44,681 bases of DNA, from positions 1 to 44,681 of the forward strand of contig JADZDR010000092.1 of NCBI GenBank assembly GCA_020850945.1, in the 5' to 3' direction. Position 1 is the first letter of the stretch. Every line of letters starts with the position of its first letter. The notes under the pieces were generated by a model. It was given only the letters and a program-made list of their open reading frames with translations. It made no database searches and was not told where the DNA came from. The position numbers were made by a program, and so were the translations under genes. Origin of the DNA: Acidimicrobiia bacterium (lineage in GTDB: Bacteria; Actinomycetota; Acidimicrobiia; UBA2766). Below, one piece after another: positions 25,184-43,331 of this stretch.

Positions 25184-27130
25184 TCACTCCCCGAGCCCCC
25201 CAACGTACGTACGCAGGTCGACGAGGTCCTCTGGGGGCACGACCTCGGCCGAGTTCCATAGGGCCACGACTTGGCGCTCCAAGGCGTCGCCAGACTTGAA
25301 GTCGAGCGCCGCCGCCGCCCGCCCGAGCGTCTGTTTGCCAAGGCATCGCCGAAACCAGTCGGGCGTGTCCCGATCGCTCATGTAGTCGGTCCATGCGGCC
25401 GCGAGCAGCTCTTCCCACATTTCGGCAAGGGTCGGATCGACGGCCGAGACGGACGCGGCGCGCCGACCGGCCCAATCGGCGTTCAGCTCGGCCATCGTGG
25501 CGTTGCCCAGTGCCGACACGGCGCTCTTCGGGAGGTCATGCTCTGCCGGGAATCTGGAGGCGGCGTTGTGTGCGACCCACAAGCCAGCGAAGTGGTCGCC
25601 CGATTCGCGAACGACAGTCGCGGCTTCGTCCCGATGGCGTCCCGCTCTTTGGAGCAGGATAGATATGGCATCGGGTTGCAGGTAGAGGTGGCGGTTCTCT
25701 ACCTCATGGCAGCCGAGTACGTGGACACCGGCATCAGATTGGAGCTGCATGCGCTCGTGGTCATTCTTGAAGTCGCGATCGATTACGCCGCCGACATGGA
25801 GCTGCTCGTCGGTCTCGTAGGCGAGTGTCCTGACGTCGCGCAACCGGCGAATCACCTCGTTGCAGCTACCACCCTCCAGAAACCGATTGACGTCCGGATT
25901 CCCACACACGGCGTAGAAGCGCTCGCGCTCGCGACTCTGACGGTCTCCTTCGATGTAGACGAAGCGAAGACGGCTAAGCGCGAACGCCGGAGACCCGACA
26001 GCTGCCGACAAGGCAGAAAGCACTGGGCGACCTTCCAGTCGAGTGGGCGCGGTGACCGTGCGTGACTCCGGATCGCGTTCGAAGACGAATGTCGAGGTCG
26101 GTCCAGCAACCTCAACGGCCTCAAGCGAGTGAGTGGCGATCCAAACCTGCCCGTCCTTCACGGTGTCTCGGAGGAAGGCGAGCCAGTTGCGAAGCAGGTC
26201 GGAGTTCAGATGCAGCTCGGGCTCATCGATGAGTAGGAGACCGCGCTGCAGTCGGAAGCGGTCGACTTGGCCGATCAGAAACGCGACCTCGCGCTCCCCA
26301 CCGCTGAGCCGAGAGAAGGCGAGTTCCAAGCCAGCGCTGTCGAAGAGTGGCGTCCGGCGCTGCCCGGACGACTCGACCCCAACGAAGTGGAGATGCGGCA
26401 GAACCTCATGCAGAGTGGCGCGGTAGCTGTCGAACGGATCAACGAACACAGGCTCAGGTTCGCCGGCGTCACGGGCTCGGCGGATGCCCGTCACGTGTTC
26501 GGTAGCGCACCTCTCCTCGACTCCCAAGAAGTACTTCATCCACTCCTCGTAGAGGGTGCGCGTCGGCCTGTACGCCCACTGGCGGGTGAACTCAGGGCTT
26601 TCCCATTCCTGCTGCCAGATCTCGCCGTAACGATGCGGTTCAATCTGCATCGGTGGGTACGCGCGATCCGCATCCAGATAGAGGTGCTGTGTCTCTTTGC
26701 GCTGGCGGAGAAGCTGGACAACGGTCTGTCCGAGCTGCTGTGACAGCCCCTCGTCGAGACCTGGAGCCGTGATCGTTTGCTGCGGGCCGCCATCGGGCGT
26801 ACGGCGGCTTACGAAGCTGAGTTCGCCATTCCAGGGCCCACCGGCTTCCTCGATCTGGGTCATGAGAGGCACGGGCAGTTCCAAGTCCGTTGATGGCACT
26901 TGAACGACTACCTCGATCTCGTGTGGTTCATCCAGAGGATTGCCTCGTGCGATCTCGACGCCCTGAGCGATCCCCAATTGGTGCGCTGCTGCCGACAGCA
27001 GCTCGAGAACGGCGCTCTTGCCAGTGCCATTTTCGCCCACGAGGCACACCAGCGAGGCGTCCGGGTCTACATGGAGGTCGACTTGACGCAGGTTCCGCCA
27101 GTCCTTGACTCTGAGTCGGGTCACCCTCAC
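25184..27130 (-). CDS. ABC-type ATPase fused to DUF4435 Toprim-like domain (PARIS/OLD-like)
   Basis: 648 residues from GTG 27130, overlapping the upstream gene's stop by four bases. The N-terminal ATPase half is an SMC/AAA15-type domain: FRN-like WRNLRQVDL, Walker A GENGTGKS (32-39), signature LSGGE (275-279), Walker B GLLLIDEPE (297-305) and a switch histidine in ATHS (334). The C-terminal half matches DUF4435: FVYIEGDRQ (E394), HVGGVIDRDF (D451, D453) and GCHEVEN (475-479), the acidic set of a Toprim-like nuclease. Known: in the PARIS defence system AriA is an AAA15 ATPase and AriB a DUF4435 Toprim nuclease, and fused forms exist; OLD nucleases share the plan. Inference: an anti-phage sensor-effector on one chain that senses phage counter-defence and kills or stalls the cell. 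A generic OLD-like nuclease is the alternative. Confidence 0.7.
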   Translation of the reverse strand: MRVTRLRVKDWRNLRQVDLHVDPDASLVCLVGENGTGKSAVLELLSAAAHQLGIAQGVEIARGNPLDEPHEIEVVVQVPSTDLELPVPLMTQIEEAGGPWNGELSFVSRRTPDGGPQQTITAPGLDEGLSQQLGQTVVQLLRQRKETQHLYLDADRAYPPMQIEPHRYGEIWQQEWESPEFTRQWAYRPTRTLYEEWMKYFLGVEERCATEHVTGIRRARDAGEPEPVFVDPFDSYRATLHEVLPHLHFVGVESSGQRRTPLFDSAGLELAFSRLSGGEREVAFLIGQVDRFRLQRGLLLIDEPELHLNSDLLRNWLAFLRDTVKDGQVWIATHSLEAVEVAGPTSTFVFERDPESRTVTAPTRLEGRPVLSALSAAVGSPAFALSRLRFVYIEGDRQSRERERFYAVCGNPDVNRFLEGGSCNEVIRRLRDVRTLAYETDEQLHVGGVIDRDFKNDHERMQLQSDAGVHVLGCHEVENRHLYLQPDAISILLQRAGRHRDEAATVVRESGDHFAGLWVAHNAASRFPAEHDLPKSAVSALGNATMAELNADWAGRRAASVSAVDPTLAEMWEELLAAAWTDYMSDRDTPDWFRRCLGKQTLGRAAAALDFKSGDALERQVVALWNSAEVVPPEDLVDLRTYVGGLGE

Positions 27131-28860
27131 TGATCACCCCCGTCACCCCGGCGGTTGCGACCTTTGCGTTTCTGCTTGGGGAACTTGGGGCCCGGTCCAT
27201 ACTCGACTGCGGGCCCGCGTTGCTGTTCAGAGGTCTTGACAAGGATCTGTCGCTGCTGAAGGTCACGCAGAAGGTCCCGCGCCCGGAAGACGTCAAGGTC
27301 GAGGAGATTCTGCAGCGTTCGGTTGCTGATCCGTCCGTACTCGTTCACGTGGGCGATCACCTTGCGGTCAGTGTCGTCGACACTTCGTCGGCGATAGGCA
27401 ACGGCGCCACCGAGGGTGCCCAGTGCAGATGATCGAAGCCGGTACTCCGACTTCTTCAGTCGTCGGGACTCTCGAGTCGCTTCCAGAATGCCCGGTTTGT
27501 CCGCGGCGAGTCGCGACAAGACGGATTCGGCCTCGGTTTCGCTCTTCTGGATGGTCCCGGCCAGCTCCTCGGCGGTAATCGTTCGCGAGGTCAACATGCT
27601 GAAGATGACGAGGAGTGTGTCAACGTCGTCGCGTTCGACGTCGTCCAGCCCGGCGATGAACTTGACGACCTGAGTACGTGGAGCTCCTCCCACGAAGGCG
27701 ACACGCGTTGTGTCGGTGGTCTGGGTGATCGAAGGAGTGTCGTGACCGGATCGGAGCAGCTCTCGGTACATGCGGTCGACCCCACGACCCGTCTCTTCGG
27801 ACAGGCGGAGCTTGCGAGCCGCCTGGAAGAGGCAAGGGTTCCGGGGTTTCGACGGATGAGTCAGAATGTTCTGCTCGGTGACTCCTGCTACGAGCGGTCC
27901 CGGTGACTCGACGACAAAGACGGTCGGTGAATGCTCGATCGTGACCGGAGCAGTCAGGCGGAACTCGCGGTGGAAGAGTGCATTGCCGATCACCTCACGC
28001 ACGGCCCCCTCTGGGAAGTCCGCCACTTCGATCTGGCTGCCATCCGGAAGGTTCAGCGATGTGACGTGGCGTCTCGCCCACGCGAGCTCGACAAGTTGGT
28101 CAAGAACCATCAAAAGGGGTCCGGCCAAGCGTTCAACGAGCGTGGCCTCCCCTCCTGGCGTCGGTCGATACTGGTAAAGCACCCAAGGCGTGGATCCGCT
28201 GCCGGCGCAGAACAAGACCTCACCCCCGCGCAGGAGGCGACCGCGTTCGTCAACAACGCCGAGTCCACGCAGGAGATCAGCATCGGACAGGTCGGCGAGC
28301 TTGCTGACCTCATCCGAGTATTGGCGGAGCCGACGTCGCGCCGCCGACAGAGCGTCCGGATCCACATCCCCCATTCCGACATCGGAGACCTCGGCGGACC
28401 AGTCCACACCACGACGCTCCTCTCGCAGGGCAGCCTGATCCTGAGGACTCATCGGGAGGCAGGCAGAGCCGACGCGGCGTTTGGCCCTGCCCTGCGGGTC
28501 GGCGTGGATTTCGAAACTGCGGGGAACCGTCAGGACGAGGACGCGTCGATCCTCGAACCTGAGCTCATCGGCCTGAACGAGAAGCGCAGGGGTTGTGAGC
28601 TCGTAGATGCGTCGCTGCACCTCTTGAGGGTCGAGCTCGGTCCCAATCAAGGCATCCGGCCCACTTACGTCGTCATTCACACCGACAACGACCGTGCCGC
28701 CGTCGGCGTTGGCAAAGCAGACGGCTGCGTCGGCGAGCAGCCTGGCGGTCTCGCGTGGCGACCGCGCGTCCTCCTTGAAGTCCAGCCTGACATCTTCGAG
28801 ATCCCGTGGACGTGCACCGTCGAAGATGTGGCGGAGCTGAGCTTCGATGTCCGATTCCAA
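27127..28860 (-). CDS. AlbA_2/Schlafen-like protein with HATPase_c_4 domain (copy 2)
   Basis: 577 residues from a TTG at 28860, with AGGT six bases before it. AlbA_2 (Schlafen-like) domain at about 20-135: RLDFKE (25-30) and ANADGGTVVVGV (50-61). The HATPase_c_4 domain follows: AVREVIGNALFHREF (286-300), ESPGPL (318-323), RNPCLF (340-345) and EETGRGVDRM (355-364). C-terminal winged-helix segments (about 400-550) end in a Lys/Arg-rich tail. Such proteins are often annotated as ATP-binding transcriptional regulators and recur in defence loci; some AlbA_2 proteins are nucleases. The gene overlaps the ATPase-DUF4435 gene by four bases, so the two are probably made together, perhaps as regulator or partner. 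A palindrome CCTGA-AAG-TCAGG lies just upstream (near 28884-28896), a possible autoregulatory operator. Confidence 0.75.
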   Translation of the reverse strand: MESDIEAQLRHIFDGARPRDLEDVRLDFKEDARSPRETARLLADAAVCFANADGGTVVVGVNDDVSGPDALIGTELDPQEVQRRIYELTTPALLVQADELRFEDRRVLVLTVPRSFEIHADPQGRAKRRVGSACLPMSPQDQAALREERRGVDWSAEVSDVGMGDVDPDALSAARRRLRQYSDEVSKLADLSDADLLRGLGVVDERGRLLRGGEVLFCAGSGSTPWVLYQYRPTPGGEATLVERLAGPLLMVLDQLVELAWARRHVTSLNLPDGSQIEVADFPEGAVREVIGNALFHREFRLTAPVTIEHSPTVFVVESPGPLVAGVTEQNILTHPSKPRNPCLFQAARKLRLSEETGRGVDRMYRELLRSGHDTPSITQTTDTTRVAFVGGAPRTQVVKFIAGLDDVERDDVDTLLVIFSMLTSRTITAEELAGTIQKSETEAESVLSRLAADKPGILEATRESRRLKKSEYRLRSSALGTLGGAVAYRRRSVDDTDRKVIAHVNEYGRISNRTLQNLLDLDVFRARDLLRDLQQRQILVKTSEQQRGPAVEYGPGPKFPKQKRKGRNRRGDGGDQ

Positions 28861-28982
28861 GTTTGACCTACTTTGGCGGAGCCCTGAAAGTCAGGATGAC
28901 ATCAAACTAGCGCCAAACGCCCGCCGTGGGTGGACCCTCCGCCACTCCGTCACACGCACCACGTAAGACCCGTCGGCTTGGG

Positions 28983-29458
28983 TCACAAGAGGCCCCGCGC
29001 CTTGAATTCCGACTTGAGCAGAGGGATCTTCTCACCGGCCGCGAACAGCTGCTCGAGTATGGCCCGACCGCCTCTCGGATCCGCATCGTTCTTCTCCATG
29101 GCCGGTTTGCCGACGGCCTCCTCGACGAAGACGGCATGAGGGGCCCACTCGTACAAGCCGCAGACGATGACTGGGCCGCCCGATCTGCGCCAGGTCGCCA
29201 GGTAGAGGGGATCCGGATGCACGCTGGCGACACTGGGCTTCTCGTACTTGCCCTTCCAATTCAGAACTGGCGCGCGCCGCTCCCTCCGAAGAGGGCATTC
29301 TCGAGCGAGCGGAACTGTTTCCGCCCTTGGGGCCGCTTTTTGTTGCCGGTCGCTGCGCCACCGGCGCGTCTTGTCGCTCGTGCTCACGAGTCGAACGACA
29401 CCTTGACACGTAGGGGAACGGCTGTCGCACCGCGGCGTGTGCGATACAGGTTGTCCAT
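28983..29458 (-). pseudogene. Disrupted small gene downstream of the DUF499 gene
   Basis: A strong RBS (GGGGAGGAC, complement of 29465-29473) stands six bases before ATG 29458. The frame stops at TGA 29386-29384 after 24 codons. The same frame then reads sensibly again (KKRPQGRKQFRSLENALFG) to a TGA at 29263-29261. From about 29270 a different frame, open from GTG 29387 to the stop at 28983, becomes convincingly protein-like (LNWKGKYEKPSVASVHP, PVIVCGLYEWAPHAVFVEE, ILEQLFAAGEKIPLLKSEF) with good G/C-ending bias. A run of A bases near 29338-29342 is a plausible slip site. The simplest reading is one gene of about 135-160 residues broken by frameshifts; sequencing error or programmed shifting cannot be excluded. 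The family is not recognised. The position after DUF499 is where DUF1156/DUF499 loci often carry another component. Confidence 0.5.
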
Positions 29459-29483
29459 CGGGCAGTCCTCCCCAGTCGACTCA

Positions 29484-32400
29484 TCACCGCTCTTCGAACC
29501 CGTGGGTCTCGAACTTCAGGTTCGCGGCGTTCTCGGTCACCTTTCGGATCGTCGCCTCGTCGAAGCCGGCGTCGGCCTCGGCCTCGATCTCGATGTGCAC
29601 GCAGAGCCGGCTTGCTCCTGCCTTGGCGAGCTGGGCTGTGATGAACTCGGCGATGTCACCGGCCTTGGTGCCAAGGCGTAGCGGGTCGAGCTCGACTCGA
29701 CCGTGAAACCGCCGATATACGGCCGGCGCTTCCTCGTCCTCCCCGACGACGGTGGGCGTCTGGGCGGTCGCGCCGGCGCCTGCGGGCTCGGGTTCGACGG
29801 CGACGTCGGCGCTCTCGGCCTTCTGTTGGGCGAGGGCGAAGTCGGCTTTCACGAGTAGTCCTTCGAGGGTCACGGTGGCCTTGTGCGAACCTGCCTGAAG
29901 TCCCCGGTACCGTCCCGCTTCGTCGTCGCGGCTCTCCGCGTAGGCGAACGTGTCGATGTTCCACGAGGTCGACGCGAGCCCCGAGGCGATGCTGCGGCGC
30001 AGCACGTCGAAGTCGCAGAGCCGCTGCAGATACGGGTACTGGGCGAAGTCTTCCCAGAGCTGCCGGACCGAGACATCGTCGTTCCGCCAGAGAGGAACCC
30101 TGTCGAGGTCGAGCCGTAGGTTCGTCGCGCCATAGTCGGTGACTAGGAGGCCGTCGCCCGTGAGCTTGCGGAAGGCGCGCTCGGGGATCGGCTCCGAACC
30201 GCGGATGCGGATCGTCTCGATCTCGATCCCGCCGGTGGGGTCCGGCTGCACGGGAACCAGGAGCCACTGGTACGTGTCGGGCAGACGCTGGCTGACGGTG
30301 TCCCTGGCCTGTTCGAGCTTGGCCTCGGTCTGCTTGATGCCGAACTGGTCGAGGTTGAGGGTTTCCCGGTCGGAGGAGATGCTCGCCCAGGCCAGCTGCT
30401 GGCGGACGGCCTGTTCGAGCTCCTCGAGGCGGGAGGCATCGGCAGCGGCGAAGACGAGCATGTTCCGGAAGCGACGCGGGCTGCTTCCCCGCTCGTCGAG
30501 CAGCTCCCTCGCTCTCGTGATCGCTGCGCTGTCGGCGGTCTTCGACGAGTGAGGCTTCTCGGGACCCAGCACTACGAGTCGCACTTGTTGCTCGTCGGGG
30601 ATGTCGCCGCTCGTCCCGCGATCGATCTGCAGGGCCGGAAAGCCGGCTTTGCCTTTCGTCGCGTCGAGCCGGCTGAGGATCTCCGTGTACACATGCTCGT
30701 CGGTGTCGAACTGCTCTGCTCTGTCTCGGGCTAGTTGCGCGACGCTCGGCTGGGTCGCGAACCAGTACCGGCCGGATTCGTCGACGTAGATGTGTGTGGC
30801 GCTGTCGGTCAGGCGGCGCAGGGCATCCCCGTATGTCGCGGGGCTCTCACCGGGGAGTGCCGAGCCGAGCTTGATGCGCCGGTCGTTGATGCCACGGTTC
30901 TCCGACTTCAGTGTCGGGGCCGACCCGAGGAAGATCGTCCGTGCGACCCGTCGGCACGCCTGGTACTTGCCGAGGTTCGGGTATTCGGCATCGAGGCGTC
31001 GCGGTGTCGAGTTCGGACCGTCGACGTCGGTCTCGATCACGGGCGGCCAGTTCTCTTCCAGGTAGTTGTTCAGCTCCTCCTGGACAGTGGGGGCGGCGAT
31101 CGGCACGGACGCGGGCATGATGAGAGGCGACTGGTCACCGGACTCCCACAACTGATGGATCACACCCGCCATAAGGCGCAGCACGCCCCGCGTGCGCTGG
31201 AAGCGCTCCAGCGACGACCAATCGCCGTAGAGGCGGTCGAACAGTTCCGGATGGATCGGGTATGCGGCCTTGATGCGGTCCTCGTACGAAGCTTCCTTCG
31301 TCCCTGCCGGGAACTCACCCTCGTTCGCCTTGTAGAACTCGACGAAGGCCCGTGCCGTCGCATCCCGGCGTGTGTGCGCGTCCGTGCCTGCAAGGTCCTT
31401 GAAGAGGCGACGTCGCACGATCTCGAACGACTCCTCCGCCGTCGCCGGCTGCCACGGGGACTCGATGCGACCGATGACGTTCTTGAGCCGCTTCAGCGCC
31501 TGACGGCCGCCCTCGCCGCCGATCTCGATCTCGGAGCCGATCGTCTCCCCCGCGGGCCCGCTCGGTCCGGCCGAGGCCGGTATGGAGACGACGAGCAGGG
31601 TACGCGGCGCCGCCCGCGCCGCTTCAGTGAGCGACTGGGCGAAGGTGAAGTGGGAATCGAACGTGCCACCAGGCAGATCGTCCTTTCCCCACAGCATCCT
31701 CGCATACGCGACCCATTCGTCGATGAGGATCAACGTCGGTCCGTCTCCCAACAGCGACCGGATCGCCGCTGCACCCGGGCTCGTGCCTGTCCTGTCTGCC
31801 TCCGCGATCGAGTCGTACGCCGCCTGCCCGCCCACTTGCCAGGCGAGCTCACCCCACAGAGTGTGGATCTCCGGTCCGCCGTCGGGCCGGTGGGTTTGCG
31901 CAGGGGACAGCCACGTGCCGACGAGCACGGCACGCCGCACATCCTCGGCGGGAAGATCAACCGCCGCGTCGGCGAGTAAGGCCTCCACGCCGGCGAGGCC
32001 GGTCGCCTCGGCACCGGAGAACATGTGATACAGGGCCAAGAGGCTGTGCGTCTTACCGCCCCCGAAGTTCGTCTGAAGCTCGATGATCGGCGCCCCGCCC
32101 ATGCCGTCGAGCCGAGCGGCCGCACCCCGCAGGAGCCGGCGCAGTCCGTCCGTCATGTAAGTGCGGCGGAAGAACTCCCGAGGATCGCGGTATTCGCTCG
32201 ACCCCTCCCCACGATGCACCTGCGCCAGATCGGCTGCGAACTCAGCCTGGCTGTACCGGCCCGTCGCGACGTCGTCGTGGGGTGCGATCACCTCCCGCCA
32301 GGGCACCGCGCCGCCGGCGGGCTTGCCCTCGACAAGGAGATCGCCGACCGCCTTCGCCGTCTTCTTCGTCTGCTCCTCGTACCTGACCCGCATGAGATCG

Positions 32401-32822
32401 TGCTTGCGGCGAGCGATCTCGGCGGCCTCCCCGGCCGACACCGCCGTGAGAAGTCGCTCCATGGTGTCGAACGCGCGGTACGTGTCGTCTGTGGAGAACG
32501 GGTCCTGGTGCGCCCACGCATTGCGCACAGTGAGTAGCTCGTTCGCATAGCTCCGGTGCTCCTTGGCGAGAACGTCGCGGAACACCCCGTCCCAGAGCAC
32601 CTGCATCGCCCTGAGCTGGAACTGCACATCCGCCGGGGAATACTCGTACGGCGTCTTGCCCGGCGGTGTCATGGCATGCACCGCGAGATCGAACCAGTCG
32701 TCCGGATTTCCCTGACCCTGCCGCTTCACCCACGCACGCAACTCAGCCTCGACGAAGGGGGCCAGCCCATCCGACAGCGCCTCGAGTGCGGAGCCGATCC
32801 GTTCACGATTCGTCTTGGCCAT
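29484..32822 (-). CDS. DUF499 P-loop ATPase with N-terminal Swt1-type HEPN domain
   Basis: 1112 residues from ATG 32822, preceded by GAGAGGGG. Residues 5-135 form an all-alpha HEPN domain of the Swt1 type: RIGSALEALSDGLAPFVEAEL, then RSYANELLTVRNAWAHQDPFS, with the catalytic-type Rx4H at R100-H105, and YRAFDTMERLLTAV. The DUF499 ATPase follows: a Walker A-like NFGGGKTH (252-259) and Walker B LILIDEW (364-370). The middle and C-terminus (about 640-1110) have winged-helix-like segments and a beta-rich end. Known: DUF499 proteins are paired with DUF1156 methylases in defence islands, and HEPN Rx4-6H domains are commonly metal-independent RNases. Inference: the ATPase couples foreign-DNA sensing to RNA cleavage. 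An RBS-masking hairpin precedes the gene, as would suit a toxic product. Confidence 0.82.
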   Translation of the reverse strand: MAKTNRERIGSALEALSDGLAPFVEAELRAWVKRQGQGNPDDWFDLAVHAMTPPGKTPYEYSPADVQFQLRAMQVLWDGVFRDVLAKEHRSYANELLTVRNAWAHQDPFSTDDTYRAFDTMERLLTAVSAGEAAEIARRKHDLMRVRYEEQTKKTAKAVGDLLVEGKPAGGAVPWREVIAPHDDVATGRYSQAEFAADLAQVHRGEGSSEYRDPREFFRRTYMTDGLRRLLRGAAARLDGMGGAPIIELQTNFGGGKTHSLLALYHMFSGAEATGLAGVEALLADAAVDLPAEDVRRAVLVGTWLSPAQTHRPDGGPEIHTLWGELAWQVGGQAAYDSIAEADRTGTSPGAAAIRSLLGDGPTLILIDEWVAYARMLWGKDDLPGGTFDSHFTFAQSLTEAARAAPRTLLVVSIPASAGPSGPAGETIGSEIEIGGEGGRQALKRLKNVIGRIESPWQPATAEESFEIVRRRLFKDLAGTDAHTRRDATARAFVEFYKANEGEFPAGTKEASYEDRIKAAYPIHPELFDRLYGDWSSLERFQRTRGVLRLMAGVIHQLWESGDQSPLIMPASVPIAAPTVQEELNNYLEENWPPVIETDVDGPNSTPRRLDAEYPNLGKYQACRRVARTIFLGSAPTLKSENRGINDRRIKLGSALPGESPATYGDALRRLTDSATHIYVDESGRYWFATQPSVAQLARDRAEQFDTDEHVYTEILSRLDATKGKAGFPALQIDRGTSGDIPDEQQVRLVVLGPEKPHSSKTADSAAITRARELLDERGSSPRRFRNMLVFAAADASRLEELEQAVRQQLAWASISSDRETLNLDQFGIKQTEAKLEQARDTVSQRLPDTYQWLLVPVQPDPTGGIEIETIRIRGSEPIPERAFRKLTGDGLLVTDYGATNLRLDLDRVPLWRNDDVSVRQLWEDFAQYPYLQRLCDFDVLRRSIASGLASTSWNIDTFAYAESRDDEAGRYRGLQAGSHKATVTLEGLLVKADFALAQQKAESADVAVEPEPAGAGATAQTPTVVGEDEEAPAVYRRFHGRVELDPLRLGTKAGDIAEFITAQLAKAGASRLCVHIEIEAEADAGFDEATIRKVTENAANLKFETHGFEER

Positions 32823-32823
32823 C

Positions 32824-32868
32824 AGGCCCCTCTCGCTCTGTCATCTCGATTGGCCGCGAGGGGGGCCT
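32824..32868 (-). promoter_or_regulatory. Hairpin sequestering the RBS of the HEPN-DUF499 gene
   Basis: Within the 70-base spacer after the methylase gene, the transcript 5' arm AGGCCCCCCTCGC (complement of 32856-32868) can pair with the 3' arm GCGAGAGGGGCCT (complement of 32824-32836) at 12 of 13 positions, across a 19-base loop. The 3' arm contains the GAGAGGGG Shine-Dalgarno and ends one base before the ATG at 32822. Folded, it would block ribosome entry; there is no T-run, so a terminator is unlikely. This is read directly from sequence; regulation is inferred. Confidence 0.6.
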
Positions 32869-32892
32869 CGACGTTTGACATAGCGGATCCCG

Positions 32893-35658
32893 TCACAGCA
32901 TGCCCTCCTGCGCGAGACGACAAATCTCGGGCCAGGCGATAACGAGTGCGTTATACGCTTGCGCTTCCTCTGAACGTCCCTTGCGGTCGCAGATCACGTA
33001 GAGCCGATAGGCGAGCTCCTTGGCTACCTCGCCCAAACCGCCGATGCGGGCGGCGAGGTCAGACGCCGCCCGCTCCCCTCCGACTTCGAGCGCGCGTATC
33101 AGGTGTTGCGTGACCTCCCATATGGGCAGGCGATCGTCGGTTCCCGGATCCCAAACCTCGGGGAGCTCATTCCGGTGAAGCAGACGCACGCTCCCCTTGC
33201 CGGACCGGACGATCCCGGCACGCGCCAAGCCGTCGACGGCCGTGTTCTTGGCCCGCGCGAGGTTGTCGGCGTCGCCGAAGGAGCCCTCTGCCAGACCATG
33301 CTGCTCGAACCAGGCGATCGCCCAACGCGTGTCCGAGTCGAACTCACTCTCTTGCTCGGCCAGGATCTCGTCCAACACCTGGTTGATGAGAACCAGCGCT
33401 GTGCGTACGGGCATGCGCGAGCCGTCGGGCTCCAGCACCCTGGCATACCTGGAGAAGACGGCCATCCCCGGACCTATCGAAGCCTGTGCGAGATCAACCG
33501 GAGCAACACTGCCCTCCTGAAGCCTTCTTAAGGCACCCGGCAACTCCGATTTCAACTCCGCCAGGAAGTCCCGGCGAGTGGCGATGGGTGCGTCCTCTGG
33601 ACGCAGACGGCACGCAAGGACGATCGAAGACGCCAGAGCGTTCGTACCGCTTGCCGTAGGTCGGTTGGACAGCTCACTGCGCATCGGCCACGTCGCCGTG
33701 ACACAGAAGCCCGCGGCCAGCAAACCTTCTAGCATCGTGTCCCAACCCGTCGACGCCACGCTCCCGTTGGCCCCGTCGGTCTCGGCCTGCTTGAACGCAT
33801 AGAAGAGCGTGAGCGGGAACGACGGGTCCTGCACCTCGCGCATGGACTCGAACGCCTTGCGCAGACCCGACTCGAAATGCTGCTCGGCCTCCCTCTTCCC
33901 CCCGTGGCGGTAGGGACTCGCGATCAGCTCCTGAGCCTTGGGAGTCAGGACGGTGCTGAAGAGGTCCGGGTACACGTCCTTGAGCGTGCGTCTGACCCAC
34001 ACGTAGAAGAAGTCCGACAGATCGGCGTACCCGATGTTGTCGTAGTAGGGCGGATCCGTCGCCACGACGGCTCTTGGTCCCGCCACGGCGGACGCATCCA
34101 GTTGGTTTACAACGCCCATTTGAGTGGCAGGCACACGTTCGACGGCCTTCGCGACCCAGTCAACACAGAAGGCCCAGTTCCCTGAGGAGTCGCTGAAGGG
34201 ATTGCTTTCGGCGAAATCCCACACCATCGGTATCGCCTGTCTGGCAAAGGTGTTCCGTGCCCCCTCCATCTTGACGCTGGAATCCCAACTGCAGATGGAC
34301 GAGTGGCGATCAGCGAGCTTGTCGACTGCCAGGCCGAGGTAGGTCACCACAGCATCGGCATACGCCAGAGCACCCATGCCATCCACGACGAGAGGAGTGG
34401 TGTCGTCCGTCATTCCGGCGGCGACGGCGTCCTTGTGGACCTGCTCGCGGACCTCGTGGACGAGATCGCTGAACGTCGTAAGCGCCACGAGCTGCCGATC
34501 GGTGAACAGGTCGCCCCACCCAGTCAGGCCGTATCCGTAGCACGTGCCGCCCGTCAGTCGTGCGGGAACGTCACCGTCTGGCCGCCAGCTGGGTTCGGCC
34601 AAGGCGGCGGCTTCCGCCTGCGAGCTGGTCGCGGGCAGGTAGACACGCTGCCTCACGCCCTCGGCGACGACCGCAACCAGTTGAGCGTCCATACGCCCAT
34701 GCATGCCTTCGCTCTTCACGTGGGCATCGTCGGCCGTCTGCCCGCATGCCAGACATCGGAAGTTCGCACCCCTGCCGATCTTGGGAGGAGGCGGTGGGTC
34801 TCCCGCGCCTGTCCGGGTCTTGAACCTCACGGTCATCGACTCATCGTCCACATGTGGTTCGATCCATGTCCTCCTGTCCTTCTTCTTGGAGAGCCAGAAC
34901 GTCGAGATGAGCGGCATCGTGGCACCGCACGCCGGGTTGGGACAGGTGACCGTCCTCGCCCAGATCCAGGCGACGACTGTTGCCTCGCCGCCGCCTTGGT
35001 CTTCGGGAAGCTCCACCTTGGGATAGAGGTGTCCGATCCGCTCCCATGCCTTGTCGCGCATCCATTGGCCGTACCATCTAACGTCCTCGGCGAGGCCCCG
35101 GGTCCCAGTCCATGTGGCGCCCAGCGCGCGCCCCGGATGCACAGCAGCAGCACCAGCAAAGCGCGGAGGGACCTCGATGAGCGCCTTCGTGATCAGGACG
35201 GGGACAGGGTTGAGGTCCGACGCGTGCGCTTCCAAGCCGAGGCGCTGCGCCTCCAGCGGTATCGACCCGCCGCCGCAGAAGGGGTCGAGGATCGCCGGCG
35301 GTTCCCCGTCACAGGAGGCGAGGATCTCCGCACGCGCATCTGCCAGTACAAAGGGATCGTTCGAGCTCTCCCAGGGAACAAGTCGCTCGATGATCTCGAA
35401 GAGCCGCTGACGTTCCTTCGCCTGCGCCTCCTCGTCCGGGAAGCGATCCGGATGCGAAGACGGGTCGTCGACGAGCTGGGCGAACAGAACAGCCCGGCAG
35501 GCCGCGAGCGGACGCCGTGCCCACCACAGATGCAGCGTCGAGGGGTGTCCGTGCCGGATTGACTTCTCCCGCGCAGCCTCGCGATTGATCGCCTCGAGCG
35601 GCAGCGCCACCTCGATCAGCTTCTTCCTTGCCGAAGCTTCAGGGGTTATGGAGCTCAC
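32893..35658 (-). CDS. DUF1156 adenine-specific DNA methyltransferase
   Basis: 921 residues from GTG 35658; the RBS is weak (AAAAGA in an AT-rich spacer of 33 bases). The N-terminal DUF1156 segment (10-60) has KSIRHGHPSTLHLWWARRP. SAM motif I is ILDPFCGGGSIPLEA (123-137, DPFCGGG at 125-131) and the catalytic motif IV is TDPPYYD (534-540). Between them lies a four-cysteine zinc ribbon (C239, C244, C302, C305). The C-terminal 200 residues are helical. Known: these are large adenine-N6 methylases found beside DUF499 ATPases and helicases in defence islands. Likely role: marking host DNA as self. The recognition sequence is unknown, and no separate restriction endonuclease gene is present apart from the nuclease-like domain on the helicase. 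Confidence 0.85.
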   Translation of the reverse strand: MSSITPEASARKKLIEVALPLEAINREAAREKSIRHGHPSTLHLWWARRPLAACRAVLFAQLVDDPSSHPDRFPDEEAQAKERQRLFEIIERLVPWESSNDPFVLADARAEILASCDGEPPAILDPFCGGGSIPLEAQRLGLEAHASDLNPVPVLITKALIEVPPRFAGAAAVHPGRALGATWTGTRGLAEDVRWYGQWMRDKAWERIGHLYPKVELPEDQGGGEATVVAWIWARTVTCPNPACGATMPLISTFWLSKKKDRRTWIEPHVDDESMTVRFKTRTGAGDPPPPPKIGRGANFRCLACGQTADDAHVKSEGMHGRMDAQLVAVVAEGVRQRVYLPATSSQAEAAALAEPSWRPDGDVPARLTGGTCYGYGLTGWGDLFTDRQLVALTTFSDLVHEVREQVHKDAVAAGMTDDTTPLVVDGMGALAYADAVVTYLGLAVDKLADRHSSICSWDSSVKMEGARNTFARQAIPMVWDFAESNPFSDSSGNWAFCVDWVAKAVERVPATQMGVVNQLDASAVAGPRAVVATDPPYYDNIGYADLSDFFYVWVRRTLKDVYPDLFSTVLTPKAQELIASPYRHGGKREAEQHFESGLRKAFESMREVQDPSFPLTLFYAFKQAETDGANGSVASTGWDTMLEGLLAAGFCVTATWPMRSELSNRPTASGTNALASSIVLACRLRPEDAPIATRRDFLAELKSELPGALRRLQEGSVAPVDLAQASIGPGMAVFSRYARVLEPDGSRMPVRTALVLINQVLDEILAEQESEFDSDTRWAIAWFEQHGLAEGSFGDADNLARAKNTAVDGLARAGIVRSGKGSVRLLHRNELPEVWDPGTDDRLPIWEVTQHLIRALEVGGERAASDLAARIGGLGEVAKELAYRLYVICDRKGRSEEAQAYNALVIAWPEICRLAQEGML

Positions 35659-35691
35659 TTTTGGATCTTTTCAAATAGCATTGGGAAACGC

Positions 35692-37383
35692 TCATAGCTT
35701 TGGGCTTCGTTCATAACGGGCACCTCGCTTTTCCCCCACCAGGCCCAGATCACCCCGCTCGGTGAGCCGTTTCAGGACGCGGCGCGCCTGTTCGGGCTTC
35801 ACTCGACACAACTCAGCGGCTTGACCGCGTGTGATCGAACCGTACGCTTCGACATACTGAAGGATCATCTGTTCCTGTTGGATGGCGTCGAAGCCGCGTC
35901 CTCGGACGTAGCCTGATCCTTCGCCGATAGCTTCGTACAATGCCGGTGCGAGCATCCAGACGCGCCCCTTCCTTTCACCGCGCGCTTCCAGAAGGCCGGC
36001 GTCGACCATTCGGTTCAGGACCCCCCTCACCGAACCCGTGTCCTCCTGCAGCAGCGTCGCTGCTTCGGCCGTGGTGATGCGCCTTTCGTGCGCGAGCTCG
36101 TTCAAGACGAGTAGCTGCTCAAATCCCATTTGGCGTCCGGCTTCGGACTCCTCGGTCAGAAACCGTACGAGGGCCAGGTTCGCGGGACCTCCCGGGATGA
36201 CGACCGTGACATGCTCGCGGGTCGAGCGGTGATAGTCGGGGAGAGCCCGGCCGTATCGGGCTTGCCCGCCGAAGATCAGGTTGACACCTCGACCCGTGCG
36301 TTCGACGAGGCCAGCGCGCTTGAACGCGTCGGCGAGCAAGGGGTTGCGCGGCGTCGGGGGCGCTACGAGCAGGTTGCCGGGATCGAGGCCGGGCATGAAC
36401 CCTCCCGGGTTGGAGATCTCCACACGGTCCGCATACCACTGCACGTGAACCGATCCGAGCTTCGTGAAGTCGCGGTGCACGAGGGCGTTCATCGTCGCCT
36501 CCCGTAGCGACGCTTCTGGGTAGGCCGGGACGGCGACCCGCAGCAGCCCCACTTGTAGTTCATCCTGGGTATTCCGTGCTCGAAACCGGCTCAGGAGTTC
36601 GTCAGCGACTCGGAGGAGCGGCCAGCAGAAGAAGTCGTTCACTTCTGCAGTGAGATCGGGGCGCAACGCCTGGAAGGCCACCTCGTGTGTCGGGATGTGC
36701 TTCGCAAGCGCTGCCTCCGAGCCAAAGAGGAGCAACGCGCCAGCACGTATTGCAGGGTCGCGTCGTGTACCGCTGACACATCCCAATGCCACGGCGATGT
36801 CGAAGTCGGACAACTCGAGTAGGGAGGGATCACCACGCCCTTCGGTCTCCCGTACCAATCGGCGAATGCGGTCGAATTCGAGCGGATCGAGATCTGTGAA
36901 CTCGGCCTCGGGGACGTCGAGGGCGGCGAAGTCCCGTGCCCCCCGGTCGATCTCTGCAGCCAACAGCTCAGCGGAGTGCATCGGGGCGCACTCCGGACGC
37001 CCATCACTCCCGATCGCACGCCGGACATACTTGCCGTCTGTCGTTCCGACGAGCCGGCCGCCAGCCGGCACCGTTACGGCAACGACGTCAACGTCATCGA
37101 CGTCGACAACTGTGACCTCCGTCCGCACGGGTGGCTGCGTTCGAGCCGCGATCAGCGCTGCGAGGCGGCTTGGGTCCGTGCGCTCACCGTGCCGGCGTCT
37201 GGCGCCGGTGATCTCACCGTCGTCCTCGATTCCGACAAGAATCGTGCCGCCTTCGGCGTTGGCGAGACACACGACGGCATGGACAAGCTCACCATCAGAC
37301 AGCGCAGCGCTGGTCTCTCCCTTGAGTTCGACCGTGAACTGCTCACCTGATGCCGCCAAGCGCTTGACTTCCCGGGCATCCAT
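35692..37383 (-). CDS. AlbA_2/Schlafen-like protein with HATPase_c_4 domain (copy 1)
   Basis: 563 residues from ATG 37383, chosen because AGGGAG precedes it and it starts 28 bases after the helicase stop; the frame is open 27 codons further up but would overlap that gene. AlbA_2 at about 10-125: FTVELKGE (16-23) and ANAEGGTILVGIEDDGEI (41-58). HATPase_c_4 at about 290-370: SLREATMNALVHRDF (292-306), NPGGF (325-329), PRNPLLADAF (345-354) and RTGRGVNLIF (362-371). Two winged-helix modules follow (about 415-560): ITTAEAATLLQEDTGSVRGVL and ITRGQAAELCRVKPEQARRVL. It is embedded between the helicase and methylase genes, so it is part of this defence operon. It could be its transcriptional switch or a nucleic-acid-cleaving component. 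It is a distant homologue of the gene at 27127-28860. Confidence 0.8.
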   Translation of the reverse strand: MDAREVKRLAASGEQFTVELKGETSAALSDGELVHAVVCLANAEGGTILVGIEDDGEITGARRRHGERTDPSRLAALIAARTQPPVRTEVTVVDVDDVDVVAVTVPAGGRLVGTTDGKYVRRAIGSDGRPECAPMHSAELLAAEIDRGARDFAALDVPEAEFTDLDPLEFDRIRRLVRETEGRGDPSLLELSDFDIAVALGCVSGTRRDPAIRAGALLLFGSEAALAKHIPTHEVAFQALRPDLTAEVNDFFCWPLLRVADELLSRFRARNTQDELQVGLLRVAVPAYPEASLREATMNALVHRDFTKLGSVHVQWYADRVEISNPGGFMPGLDPGNLLVAPPTPRNPLLADAFKRAGLVERTGRGVNLIFGGQARYGRALPDYHRSTREHVTVVIPGGPANLALVRFLTEESEAGRQMGFEQLLVLNELAHERRITTAEAATLLQEDTGSVRGVLNRMVDAGLLEARGERKGRVWMLAPALYEAIGEGSGYVRGRGFDAIQQEQMILQYVEAYGSITRGQAAELCRVKPEQARRVLKRLTERGDLGLVGEKRGARYERSPKL

Positions 37384-37411
37384 CAGCAGAACTCCCTGGC
37401 GGCATCGGCCA

Positions 37412-40400
37412 TCACATGGGCTCCCGTCCGCGTGCCCAGTATGTCTGCCAGGGGCAGTCGACACGTGTGATGTCGAAGGCGACGTTCTCGTTTCCGAAGG
37501 GTTGGGTGAGGTACCGGAGTGTGGTCGTGTCGTCTGGGGCGACCTCGACGAGGGCGAGGCGGTAGTCGTCGCCGCTGTTGAAAGCGTGCAGGAGCTCGTT
37601 CTTTGTGATGGTGAAGCTAGGTGCGCCTGTCACGCGTCCTTTCACCTCGATGACGACGAGACCGCCGGACTTGGGATCGCGACTGCTGATGTCGAACCCG
37701 GGGTGGTTGTGCGGCTTCTCCTCGGGGTCTCGGCCGAGATGGCGCTCGGCGGCGAGGACGGCGTCAACGGCGAGCCGCTCGATCCTCTGCGTTTCCTTCG
37801 CTCTCGCGGCGATCTCGTCTGCGGGAAGAGGTGATGGCTCCAGGAGCGAGGCGGAAACGACAAGTGCGGCCCCGACGACCACGGGCGCCTGTGGGTGGAG
37901 CTGTCGTTCCTCTTCGAGCTCGAGGGTGCGCCGCTGTAGTCGCGCCTGCAGGTCGTCGGCGCGTTGGCGAGCCTTGCCGGAGTTGAGCCGGGGCTTCTTG
38001 CCGGCAAGCTCCTGCTCTTTGAGTTCCGCCGCCCTGTGGTCCCAGTACGTGATCTCCCGGGTGAGTCTGTCCGTGACGGCTTTCAGTGTCTTGTCGACAC
38101 GGTCGATCGTGCGTCTTCGGACTTCCCCGAGATGCTGCGGCACGACGTCGGAGACCGCGAAGTCCAAACCGATGCGCTCGGGTTCAGCAGACCTGAGCCA
38201 GTCGAGATCGAGATCGCCCAACCGCGGTCGCTCCTCGTCGGTCGGCGGCCGATAGTCGAGGAACGGGGCGTATCCGGCATCTCGCGTCTTGCCGTCTTGC
38301 GTGACTTCGACGAACTGGTAGCGCCGCGAGACGACCCGGCGGTTGCCGTGCGCGTCGGTGCGGGCGTCCGTGATCGAGTGCTCGAGATAGACGAGCAGTC
38401 TCGGTGTCGGGTCGACGTCGGGTCTGTCGTCGACGAGCACCGCGCCATGACGCAGCAGCGAGCCGTACCGCTCCAGAAGAACGTCTACGGTCACGTCGAG
38501 GAGTGGGTGGCCGGGGCAGAGGAACTCGGCCTGAACGTGTCCCGTCGGGGCAAGGTGCTCCTTCTCGAAGGCGACGCGCTCGTAGCGGCGCAGCAGGGGC
38601 GCGCCTACGCCGATCTCACGGTCACGGCTTCTCAGGTCGGCAGGCACGTAGGTGATCTCGAAACGACCCGGTTCACGCTCGACGATCCGCCCGCCGAGTT
38701 GCCTGAAGGCCTTGAGGAAGAACGCCCGAACGTAGTGCGGCTGAAGCTTCCTGGCGGCGGCCTCGGCCATGGCCACGCGGACTTCCTCGACATCCGTCGG
38801 TGTCATGACATCGGTGATGACGGCCCTCTCGTCGAGGACCTCCTTCAGGCCCTCGCCCGCGTTGTGATCGACAATGAGCTCGAGTTGCTTCTTCGTGACG
38901 GGGTCGTCGCTGTAGCGGATTGCCTTGATGAGCAGGTGGCGCAGGGACTCATCCGCGAAGGTTTCCCCGAGGACGTCGAAGACCTGGTCACCGAGTGCTT
39001 GACGCATGGAGTCGAGCTTCTCGAAGAGACGATGGAACACGTGTCCCTCGCGGGTCTCGTGTGCCACGAGGTTCCAGAGGTGACACACCTCGTTCTGGCC
39101 GATGCGGTGGATGCGTCCGAAGCGCTGCTCGATCCTGTTCGGGTTCCAGGGGAGGTCGTAGTTGACCATGAGGTGTGCCCGTTGCAGGTTCACGCCCTCG
39201 CCCGCTGCATCGGTTGCTACGAGGATGGACGTGTCCTTGTCGACTGTGAAGGCCCCTTGGATCTTGCGGCGCTCCTCCCGCTTCGTCCCGCCGTGGATCA
39301 TTACGACGGCGTCGTCTCGGCCGATCAGGTTCCTGAGCCGGCCGGCGAGATAGTGGAGCGTGTCCCTGTGCTCGGTGAAGATGATGAGCTTGCGGCGGTT
39401 GCCGTGGGCGTCGAACATCTCCTGCTGCTCCTGGAGCAGACCGGCGAGCTCCTCCCACTTGCGGTCGCGGCCGCTCGCCCGCACCTTGGCGGCCAGGGAC
39501 TCGAGCTCGGTGAGGGCGGAGATCTCGGCTTCGAGCTCGGCGATCGTCTGAGCCGCTGACGCTTCGTCGATGAGCGCGTCGCCGATCTCCTCGGCTTCGG
39601 CATCGGGGACGTCCTCGAGGTCGGTCTCGAAGTCCTCCTCGTCGAGCCCTGCCGCGGCAGCAGGCAAGGCGGTCTCGAGGGCTGCGTCCTTGGCCCGCTT
39701 TGCGAGCTTCTCCTCGCGGAGGCGGTCCTCGAGTCTCTTCCGGCGCCGTTTCAGAGACTGATAGATGGCCTCGGGACTCGACGCGAGCCGCCGTTGCAGC
39801 AGCGTCAGGGCGAAACCTACGACGCTGCGGCGGCTGCCCTGGCCGTCGGCGAGGCGGTCGGCACGGTTCATCTCCTCCCGGACGTACTCCGTCACGCGCT
39901 CGTACAGGATCGCCTCTTCGTCGCTCAGCGTGTACGTGACGGAGTAGGCCCGCCTCTCCGGGAACAGGCGAGTACCGTCGAAGCGGAGCAGGTTCTCCTT
40001 CACGAGACGGCGCATGATCCCCATCGTGTCGACGGTGTGGACCCCGTCGGAAGCCCTCGGCCGGCCCTCGAACCGGTCCGAGTCGATGAGCGACAGGAAG
40101 AGCTGGAAGTCCTCGTCCTTGCCCGAGTGTGGGGTCGCCGTCATGAGGAGGAGATGGCGTGTCAGCCCGCCGAGGAGCCTGCCGAGCTTGAACCGCTTCG
40201 TCTCGGTGACCTCGATGCCGTACCCGTGGGCTGCCATCTTGTGCGCCTCGTCGACGACGACGAGGTCGAAGTCGCACTGGGCGAGCTTGGCCTGGGCCTC
40301 GTCGTTGCGTGACAGGGCGTCGAGACGGGCGATCAGGCGAGGCTTCTCCAAGAACGGGTTCCCGGTGCGGGACGCCTCGAACGTCTCTCTGGTAGCGATG

Positions 40401-40963
40401 TCGAAGTGGATGCCGAACTTGTCCCACATCTCGTCCTGCCACTGCTCGACGAGACTTCCCGGCGCGACGATGAGGCAGCGCTGCACGTCACCCCTGACCA
40501 TGAGCTCCTTCAGGAGGAGCCCGGCCATGATCGTCTTGCCCGCTCCCGGGTCGTCGGCGAGGAGGTAGCGGAGCGGATGGTGCGGCAGCATCTCCACGTA
40601 CACCGCCTCGATCTGGTGCGGCAGCGGCTCCAGGTTCGACGTCGTCACCGCCAGGTACGGGTCGAACAGGTAGGCGAGATTGATGCGACGTGCCTCGCTC
40701 ACGAGCATGAACAGCGTGCCGTCGGCATCGAACGCCCACGACGGGCCCGACTCCTCCAGCGACAGGGCGGGTTCGCTGTCCCGGTAGAGGAGGGTGTGAT
40801 CGGAGCGACCCGAGTCGTCCTTGTAATGGAGAGTGATCGCCGCCTGCCCATGCCACTCCACCTGCACGACCGTCACCGGCCCAGAAGGCACGATCCCCGA
40901 CACCCGGGCGCCCGGCGTCAGATACTCCAGCCGCACCGCTGTGATTGTGTCCTCTGACTCCAC
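37412..40963 (-). CDS. SNF2/SF2 helicase with C-terminal DUF3883 nuclease-like domain
   Basis: 1183 residues from GTG 40963, selected because the family-typical opening (TAVRLEYLTPGARVSGI) begins there and GGAGGG is just upstream; the frame is open further but reads as non-coding. Helicase motifs: Walker A ADDPGAGKT (136-144), DEAH at 238-241, TATPHSGK soon after, and motif VI QRFGRIHRIGQ ending at 623. A charged coiled-coil insertion lies at about 400-460. The C-terminal DUF3883 has GFDISSRD (D1091) and VVIEVKGR (E1106, K1108), a PD-(D/E)xK-like triad. Such helicases head DISARM-like and DUF1156/DUF499 defence loci. Likely role: translocation on unmethylated incoming DNA, with DUF3883 cutting or binding. 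First gene of the leftward operon. Confidence 0.87.
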   Translation of the reverse strand: MESEDTITAVRLEYLTPGARVSGIVPSGPVTVVQVEWHGQAAITLHYKDDSGRSDHTLLYRDSEPALSLEESGPSWAFDADGTLFMLVSEARRINLAYLFDPYLAVTTSNLEPLPHQIEAVYVEMLPHHPLRYLLADDPGAGKTIMAGLLLKELMVRGDVQRCLIVAPGSLVEQWQDEMWDKFGIHFDIATRETFEASRTGNPFLEKPRLIARLDALSRNDEAQAKLAQCDFDLVVVDEAHKMAAHGYGIEVTETKRFKLGRLLGGLTRHLLLMTATPHSGKDEDFQLFLSLIDSDRFEGRPRASDGVHTVDTMGIMRRLVKENLLRFDGTRLFPERRAYSVTYTLSDEEAILYERVTEYVREEMNRADRLADGQGSRRSVVGFALTLLQRRLASSPEAIYQSLKRRRKRLEDRLREEKLAKRAKDAALETALPAAAAGLDEEDFETDLEDVPDAEAEEIGDALIDEASAAQTIAELEAEISALTELESLAAKVRASGRDRKWEELAGLLQEQQEMFDAHGNRRKLIIFTEHRDTLHYLAGRLRNLIGRDDAVVMIHGGTKREERRKIQGAFTVDKDTSILVATDAAGEGVNLQRAHLMVNYDLPWNPNRIEQRFGRIHRIGQNEVCHLWNLVAHETREGHVFHRLFEKLDSMRQALGDQVFDVLGETFADESLRHLLIKAIRYSDDPVTKKQLELIVDHNAGEGLKEVLDERAVITDVMTPTDVEEVRVAMAEAAARKLQPHYVRAFFLKAFRQLGGRIVEREPGRFEITYVPADLRSRDREIGVGAPLLRRYERVAFEKEHLAPTGHVQAEFLCPGHPLLDVTVDVLLERYGSLLRHGAVLVDDRPDVDPTPRLLVYLEHSITDARTDAHGNRRVVSRRYQFVEVTQDGKTRDAGYAPFLDYRPPTDEERPRLGDLDLDWLRSAEPERIGLDFAVSDVVPQHLGEVRRRTIDRVDKTLKAVTDRLTREITYWDHRAAELKEQELAGKKPRLNSGKARQRADDLQARLQRRTLELEEERQLHPQAPVVVGAALVVSASLLEPSPLPADEIAARAKETQRIERLAVDAVLAAERHLGRDPEEKPHNHPGFDISSRDPKSGGLVVIEVKGRVTGAPSFTITKNELLHAFNSGDDYRLALVEVAPDDTTTLRYLTQPFGNENVAFDITRVDCPWQTYWARGREPM

Positions 40964-41128
40964 GGCCCTCCGCAGATGCCCGCCGTCGCATCCTCCCTGC
41001 GTCTTGCCGAATCTACCCGCCGCCTGGGACAGTCGCCCCGCCCGTACACACGTCGGATGTGCCCGGGGGTCGCGGGTTGGCGTCCCCAGATGTCGGGGTC
41101 GGTATCTGCACCTCATGTAGCGTGCTCG
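40964..41128. promoter_or_regulatory. Divergent promoter region of the defence operon
   Basis: These 165 bases separate the helicase gene (leftward) from a rightward gene and must carry the main promoter of the 16-kb defence operon. A CCCC-agatgtc-GGGG inverted repeat is at about 41084-41098, and a Gly-tract palindrome (GCCCGGGGG) at 41061. No -35/-10 pair is convincing on either strand. Confidence 0.3.
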
Positions 41129-42085
41129 GTGTACGGCGGTGTCATCGCCGTCGATGACGAACACCGAGTGACGAGCGTGGAAGAAATAGCGGAGCTGCAA
41201 GCTGTCCTCGACGGTTTCCAGCGCAACCTCGACAGCCAATCGCGGGAGTATGGCTGGGGTCCGACAGCGGATTCGCGCGCCTACCGAGAAGGTTGGGACG
41301 GTGACGAGCCACTGCAAGCGATTGTCAGGATGTCCTACGAGCTGGCCGGTATCTCGTTGCTGTCGGCCACACAGCACCTGGCGGCGATCTCACGGATCCT
41401 TGCCACGAGCCAAGATGACCAACTCCTCTATCCCATCTACACGCTCGCTCGCGGCGCGATCGAGGCGGCAGCATCGGCGTATTGGCTGCTTGCTCCCGAC
41501 GAACCAGGTGAACGCGCGCGCCGAGGACTTGCTGCGCGTCTGAAGGGCCTTGACCATCAGATGCAGGCCGTGGGCCACCTCAAGGACCACCCAGATGACC
41601 CCACCCAGGCCGCGACTGCACACCTCGCCGACCGAAGGACCCAGGTCGCCCAGGCAGCAGCGGCGATCGGCGAGGAACTGCATCCCTCCGCGTTCGCACT
41701 GAAAGGCAGAGCCGGATACCCGCGACTGCGAGACCTCGTCACCGCGCTCTACCGGGACTACGAGCAGTTCTTTCCGAACATTGGGCCTCTGCTCTATGCC
41801 TTCTTCTCTGAACGAGCGCATGGGTATCCGTCCGCGCTCGGCGGGATGCTTGTCCCTGTGACTGACGCCGACGAGTTCGGGACCCAACTCGCTCAAGCGG
41901 CCGCAGACATCGGAGAGGTCGCCTTCGCGTGCAACGTCGCTGCAACGGGAGTCGCCGTGGCGGCCGAGAGACGAGTCGAGCTGTTCGGCTGGAACTTGAC
42001 GCTGTGGCGACAATGGCGCCAACACGCGAACAAGAAGCTCTTGGAGGCTTCCGGTTTCTTCGACGGTCATGCCAGGGACGGGTAG
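41129..42085 (+). CDS. Hypothetical alpha-helical protein beside the defence operon
   Basis: About 318 residues. The start is uncertain: GTG 41129 is listed because TAGCGT lies five bases before it, which would suit a leaderless message, but GTG 41168 is as likely; neither has a Shine-Dalgarno. The protein is helical and soluble, with ISLLSATQHLAAISRIL, LYPIYTLARGAIEAAASAYWLL and a following ERARRGLAARL. The pattern L-x-R-[AG]-x-[IL]-E-[AT]-A-x-x-x-x-W-L-L recurs in uncharacterised HEPN-like proteins of bacterial accessory regions, often next to defence genes. No catalytic motif can be assigned. It is transcribed away from the helicase, so it could be an accessory toxin or immunity factor, or unrelated. 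Confidence 0.6.
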   Translation: MYGGVIAVDDEHRVTSVEEIAELQAVLDGFQRNLDSQSREYGWGPTADSRAYREGWDGDEPLQAIVRMSYELAGISLLSATQHLAAISRILATSQDDQLLYPIYTLARGAIEAAASAYWLLAPDEPGERARRGLAARLKGLDHQMQAVGHLKDHPDDPTQAATAHLADRRTQVAQAAAAIGEELHPSAFALKGRAGYPRLRDLVTALYRDYEQFFPNIGPLLYAFFSERAHGYPSALGGMLVPVTDADEFGTQLAQAAADIGEVAFACNVAATGVAVAAERRVELFGWNLTLWRQWRQHANKKLLEASGFFDGHARDG

Positions 42086-42138
42086 CGTCACCCCAGTCCC
42101 GTCTCTGAGACGTCTGAGCCGCGCCCGTAGGGGAACAT

Positions 42139-43292: not shown

Positions 43293-43331
43293 GGACGGCA
43301 CGCCCGACAGTTGTCTGCGTGTGCGGTCTGT

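Follow-up and report, generated by a model that had tools for sequence, protein, structure and literature searches.

A predicted hairpin over the hmaC ribosome binding site may gate translational coupling to hmaB in an Acidimicrobiia Hma operon

Introduction

Hma has been named as a candidate defence system (PMC8565338), and operons of this kind have also been described as type-1 DUF499-centred BREX-related systems, in which the HEPN domain is considered a possible last-resort RNase (PMC12839542). Such systems bring together a helicase, a DUF1156 methylase and a HEPN-DUF499 ATPase in one operon, and the locus described here has the same composition. Compared with the systems as they appear in excerpts of these two reports, it differs in carrying a Schlafen AlbA_2 gene between hmaA and hmaB, and a hairpin together with a small open reading frame (ORF) at the junction of hmaB and hmaC.

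Several described examples bear on how such a junction might function. Coupled genes can be silenced by a structure that covers the ribosome binding site (RBS) of the downstream gene and is opened by an upstream ribosome, as reported for phage f1 VII-IX, MS2 coat-lysis and Escherichia coli rpmI-rplT (PMC12548453). Our locus is similar in that a predicted structure lies over the downstream RBS, preceded by a frame whose ribosomes would meet it. It is unlike these examples in that the upstream frame is a candidate small ORF of 24 codons and not the preceding gene, and in that the arrangement is known here from sequence alone.

The axe-txe toxin-antitoxin operon carries a two-codon minigene that raises txe expression in cis (PMC8708949). 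In both cases a very small ORF precedes a potentially harmful gene, whose translation it would raise in cis. However, the axe-txe minigene has just two codons, its proposed route of action is through mRNA stability, and the abstract of that report states no RBS hairpin for axe-txe.

A more sobering example is provided by the PvuII restriction-modification genes, where neither the hairpins predicted at the pvuIIR RBS nor the overlap of the C and R genes proved to have a regulatory role on testing (PMC2997769). The PvuII C-R pair resembles our junction in being part of a restriction-like operon with protective and harmful genes, a gene overlap and a predicted RBS-hiding hairpin, although the upstream gene there encodes a transcription regulator. 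We consider this outcome to be the fairest prior for a restriction-like operon.

An Hma operon with an additional Schlafen gene

The DNA analysed here, termed the window, is a stretch of 44,681 nt from an Acidimicrobiia bacterium (UBA2766; GCA_020850945.1) that covers positions 1 to 44,681 of contig JADZDR010000092.1, forward strand. On the minus strand, the gene order is hmaA, a Schlafen AlbA_2/HATPase_c_4 gene, hmaB and hmaC (Table 1). The genes for the HmaA helicase, the HmaB methylase and the HmaC ATPase thus lie together on one strand and in order. A HEPN RNase domain at the N-terminus of the DUF499 ATPase is a part of the type-1 DUF499 system, and it is present in HmaC as a HEPN_Swt1 match to residues 12-129 (Pfam, 1.6e-29). 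The domain includes an RNxWAH stretch, unchanged in all 15 aligned relatives, that we take to be the HEPN RNase motif. These matches place the operon among Hma / type-1 DUF499 "BREX-related" defence operons.

By ORF coordinates, the junctions of the four core genes are, in order, a 53-nt overlap, a gap of 33 nt and a gap of 70 nt. The last of these had been singled out in a preliminary description as the longest spacer in the core operon. This is true of the four core genes when measured in this way, but an open frame occupies this spacer, as described below.

Table 1. Features of the Hma operon and of the hmaB-hmaC junction, in window coordinates
Feature	Coordinates	Strand	Description	Basis
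hmaA	37412..41377	-	SNF2-like helicase, 1321 aa	Pfam; PADLOC HmaA E 0
Schlafen AlbA_2 / HATPase_c_4 protein	35692..37464	-	between hmaA and hmaB	Pfam
hmaB	32893..35658	-	DUF1156 DNA methylase, 921 aa, C-terminus QEGML	Pfam; PADLOC HmaB E 0
hmaC	29484..32822	-	Swt1-like HEPN fused to DUF499 ATPase, 1112 aa	Pfam, NCBIfam, PADLOC HmaC 8.3e-298
Small-ORF Shine-Dalgarno AGGAGGG	32903..32909	-	inside hmaB 3' end	duplex -10.8 kcal/mol, reached by 1.3% of random 16-mers
Candidate small ORF, 24 codons	32822..32896	-	GTG 32896, internal ATG 32881, TGA 32824-32822	translation
Hairpin 5' arm AGGCCCCCCTCGC	32856..32868	-		read directly; folded
Hairpin 3' arm GCGAGAGGGGCCT	32824..32836	-		read directly; folded
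hmaC Shine-Dalgarno GAGAGGGG	32827..32834	-	within 3' arm	anti-SD duplex -7.4 kcal/mol, reached by 9% of random 16-mers

A second protein combining Schlafen AlbA_2 and HATPase_c_4 is encoded at 27127-28860 (minus strand), so that, together with the one that separates hmaA from hmaB in the Hma core, one defence cluster holds two of them. Adjoining the operon is a gene for an AAA_21-DUF4435 fusion protein (25184-27130, minus strand), which matches PADLOC AriAB (7.7e-27) as a PARIS-like defence gene. At another hmaC-type locus (L068), an AAA gene and a DUF4435 gene likewise lie beside hmaB-hmaC.

A hairpin covers the hmaC ribosome binding site

The two arms of the hairpin, AGGCCCCCCTCGC and GCGAGAGGGGCCT, form 12 of 13 possible pairs and enclose a loop of 19 nt (minus strand), and a single base (32823) separates the 3' arm from the hmaC ATG at 32822-32820. 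Direct reading of the sequence therefore agrees with the preliminary description in every respect, including the placement of the RBS within the 3' arm. The hmaC start codon is also secure because this ATG is the sole in-frame start downstream of the preceding stop, and because homologues begin at the same residue. The possibility of a true start elsewhere, on which the proposal might have foundered, is not borne out.

Folding gives a more qualified result. The 45-nt hairpin on its own is stable, with a minimum free energy of -23.3 kcal/mol and a z-score of -3.0, but the z-score shrinks as flanking sequence is added, to -2.0 at 81 nt and -1.2 at 101 nt. The predicted probability of the stem averages 0.70-0.79 over contexts of 70-120 nt. 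In longer stretches of naked RNA it drops to 0.46 (150 nt) and 0.31 (200 nt), because the end of hmaB and the start of hmaC offer other pairing partners. The existence of the stem in the cell would depend on ribosome traffic.

A candidate small ORF bridges hmaB and hmaC

The hairpin lies within an open frame that crosses the whole spacer and that the preliminary description missed. From GTG 32896 to TGA 32824-32822 (minus strand), the 70 nt between hmaB and hmaC contain no stop codon. The GTG of this frame overlaps the hmaB stop (GTGA), and its TGA overlaps the hmaC ATG (TGATG). The Shine-Dalgarno sequence preceding the GTG is among the stronger ones to be expected (Table 1), and the internal ATG at 32881 has none comparable (-4.1, a value reached by 39% of random 16-mers).

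A comparable frame, defined by at least 10 codons, an early start and an end at hmaC, occurs in 3.6% of random spacers of the same composition. The codon score of the small ORF falls between those of true and false frames: it is in the bottom 5.5% for in-frame windows and the top 2.6% for off-frame windows. Among Markov shuffles of its letters, 23% score at least as high. Because codon usage is ambiguous as to coding, we regard the small ORF as a candidate coupling ORF and not as a proven gene. Translational coupling through RNA unfolding calls for an upstream frame that enters the structure and has its stop close to the start of the downstream gene; the candidate ORF (32896-32822) does both, terminating within TGATG. 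Relative to other members of the family, hmaB stops early here, and the small ORF restores a stop at the hmaC start.

The best reading of these features, which we put forward tentatively, is that the hairpin serves as an RBS-hiding element in a translational coupling, bridged by the small ORF, that ties the HEPN-ATPase to the methylase. A ribosome ending hmaB would be positioned on GTGA, shortly after a strong Shine-Dalgarno, and could reinitiate on the 24-codon ORF. In traversing this ORF, it would melt the hairpin. On terminating at TGATG, with the hmaC Shine-Dalgarno beneath it, the ribosome would then either reinitiate on hmaC or expose its start. Independent entry of ribosomes at hmaC would be held low, and thus the HEPN-ATPase would be made mainly where the methylase had just been translated.

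Ribosomes were simulated with an assumed footprint of 15 nt on either side. With a modelled ribosome at the hmaB stop, pairing of the stem stays at 0.89 and the RBS is still hidden, whereas one placed at the small-ORF stop abolishes the stem. These results suggest that a ribosome terminating hmaB would not open the stem by itself, but that one continuing through the small ORF would.

We consider it rather unlikely that the small ORF evolved as a licence for translation, with its start fused to the methylase stop, its stop fused to the HEPN-ATPase start, and the hairpin blocking free entry. Under such an arrangement, the RNase-ATPase would come only from ribosomes fresh off the methylase.

The junction in other hmaC-type loci

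Collection of hmaC-type loci yielded 158 entries, from which copies of the window's own locus (L001, L064) and five duplicates (L080, L091, L111, L112, L143) were removed. A further 23 loci with no N-terminal HEPN match near residue 1 were left out, which gives 128 distinct hmaC-type starts, including that of the window, from bacteria of many phyla as judged from record titles. No full-length relative above ~55% identity was found, the best partial match being 62% over 562 residues.

An hmaB gene lies within 200 nt upstream of hmaC at 69 of the 128 loci; at the other 59, hmaC is directly preceded by another gene or hmaB is not detected. The stop of hmaB and the start of hmaC lie 20 nt apart or less in most adjacent pairs (58 of 69; median 10), which makes tight spacing a habit of the family. 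TGATG overlaps occur at six of the 128 starts, the window included. Nine other loci have gaps of 25-200 nt and present a mixed picture. At two of them (L073, L129), a frame with its end 1 nt upstream of hmaC extends back past the 110 nt examined. At a third (L056), the upstream frame ends 3 nt before hmaC, and its gap of 74 is overestimated since the hmaB match breaks early. At the remaining long-gap loci, frames are shorter, more distant or absent, and bridging frames are thus not a rule among them.

Two side observations concern these loci. The hmaC relative at L056 (G572:C45) contains 12 in-frame TGA codons and one TAG in one matched stretch, spread over several pieces, and represents either a decayed copy or assembly errors. 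The hmaB-hmaC junction is also often an insertion site, with genes for four-helix-bundle, HTH and HicB-like proteins and transposases lying between or near the two genes (L066, L067, L068, L071, L075).

Placement of the hairpin and the possibility of chance

The RBS of hmaC in the window is the most hidden of the 128 starts, with a mean unpaired probability of 0.15 against a median of 0.51, and the repeat is the strongest among them. Overall folding energy at this start is unremarkable, however, since 7 of the 127 other loci are as low or lower. The same pattern holds within the genome. Among 34 start/stop overlaps from a sample of this genome plus the window, none has an RBS as hidden as that of hmaC, although nine fold overall at least as strongly. 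It is thus the placement of the hairpin that is notable and not its stability. The preliminary description had suggested that translation may be low until the structure is opened, for instance by a coupled ribosome or by infection. The predicted occlusion of the RBS, relative to the 127 homologous starts and the 34 junctions, is consistent with the first part, and a coupled ribosome could plausibly open the structure; opening by infection is not supported.

Conservation points the other way. A hairpin or repeat as strong is found at none of the 127 other hmaC-type loci, and a search of 28800-43500 against Rfam at gathering scores gave no match. The structure is therefore not kept across this set, which offers no second stem in which to look for the compensatory changes that would mark a conserved cis-regulatory RNA.

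We give about equal weight to the reading that the hairpin is a GC-rich inverted repeat that arose by chance and regulates nothing. On this view, hmaC is translated by ordinary initiation or simple reinitiation while ribosome traffic keeps the region open. GC-rich DNA gives rise to such repeats, and they are common in this genome. In a sample of 341,664 bases, 48 repeats of this grade (collapsed by centre) were counted, twice the Markov mean of 23. The window contains 10, when repeats of 12/13 or better with loops of 3-30 are counted and overlapping ones are taken separately; 60 Markov runs gave a mean of 3.1 and a maximum of 13. Across the 128 hmaC-type loci, about 0.2 such repeats are expected by chance and one is seen. 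The competition from other folds in long contexts and the PvuII precedent also favour a repeat without function.

Against a fortuitous origin stands the position of the repeat exactly over an RBS that ranks as the least accessible in both comparisons. Shuffling of positions -60..-1 of the hmaC start yields an RBS hidden to the same degree in 5 of 1000 sequences, and a repeat of equal quality in 2 of 1000. By local shuffling the hairpin is therefore rare, but with some 20 gene starts in the window this rarity is not compelling, and chance could account for it.

Less probable explanations

It is improbable that reinitiation through the small ORF proceeds with a hairpin that has no role, the GTGA and TGATG overlaps alone passing ribosomes from hmaB to hmaC. 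The overlapping signals and the strong Shine-Dalgarno speak for such a route, tight spacing is the family habit, and overlapping starts are common in the genome, as the 34 found attest. Nevertheless, this explanation leaves the unusual occlusion of the RBS unaccounted for.

Even less probable is that an indel broke the tail of hmaB, creating an early stop and leaving the spacer as the former tail in another frame. Most relatives do have a longer tail past a conserved WPE..RLA stretch, and the distance from the Trp of this stretch to hmaC is 112 nt here compared with 64-94 in most. However, HmaB already ends in a motif characteristic of the family. The pattern Qxx[LIM][FL] occurs within the last 15 residues of 46 of 106 distinct HmaB tails, a count that includes an artefactual row from L056, compared with a mean of 1.58 (maximum 6) in 500 shuffles; in HmaC proteins it is present in 7 of 3278 windows of 15 residues. 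The HmaB of the window carries the motif once, as its last five residues QEGML (residues 917-921; 32893-32910, minus strand), and one relative (L012) has a nearly identical tail, QETML. The peptide in the spacer frame lacks the motif. Since HmaB already carries the family's tail motif at its end, we rate a broken tail low, and the hmaB stop at 32893 is argued to be genuine.

The HmaB tail motif invites a separate remark. Being QxxLF-like, it is similar to QL(S/D)LF, which PMC9690074 quotes as the bacterial sliding-clamp motif, and is a candidate binding motif for the sliding clamp (DnaN). Such binding, if it occurs, would tie the Hma methylase to replication forks. Literature searches combining the sliding clamp with DUF1156 or with restriction, and passages of PMC12839542, gave no mention of a clamp motif in HmaB.

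That the repeat acts as a protein-bound operator in the DNA, or ends transcription in the manner of a terminator, is scarcely credible: although its arms lie 32 bp apart centre to centre, or about three helical turns, the repeat (with loops of 10-30) occurs nowhere else in the genome, no U-run follows either arm, Rfam yields no match, and the element sits in mid-operon at a start codon. An intrinsic terminator was rejected because no U-run stands directly 3' of the stem, which is followed by GATGGCC on the minus strand and by CGACGTTTG on the plus strand. A 14-base pattern that covers some of the 5' arm, searched with a tolerance of three mismatches, shows no clear enrichment in the window (21 occurrences versus 15.1 expected, with as many in 9 of 100 shuffles).

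Implications

The hairpin may be a local, unconserved case of a known kind of control, for which an origin by chance is conceivable. Because it is found at a single locus, it has little bearing on Hma systems as a whole; a broader regularity is that hmaC usually begins within ~20 nt of the stop of an adjacent hmaB. If coupling gated by the hairpin and bridged by the small ORF is real, then the HEPN-ATPase, a possibly self-toxic component of a widespread defence system, would be kept in step with the protective methylase without the need for a dedicated regulator.
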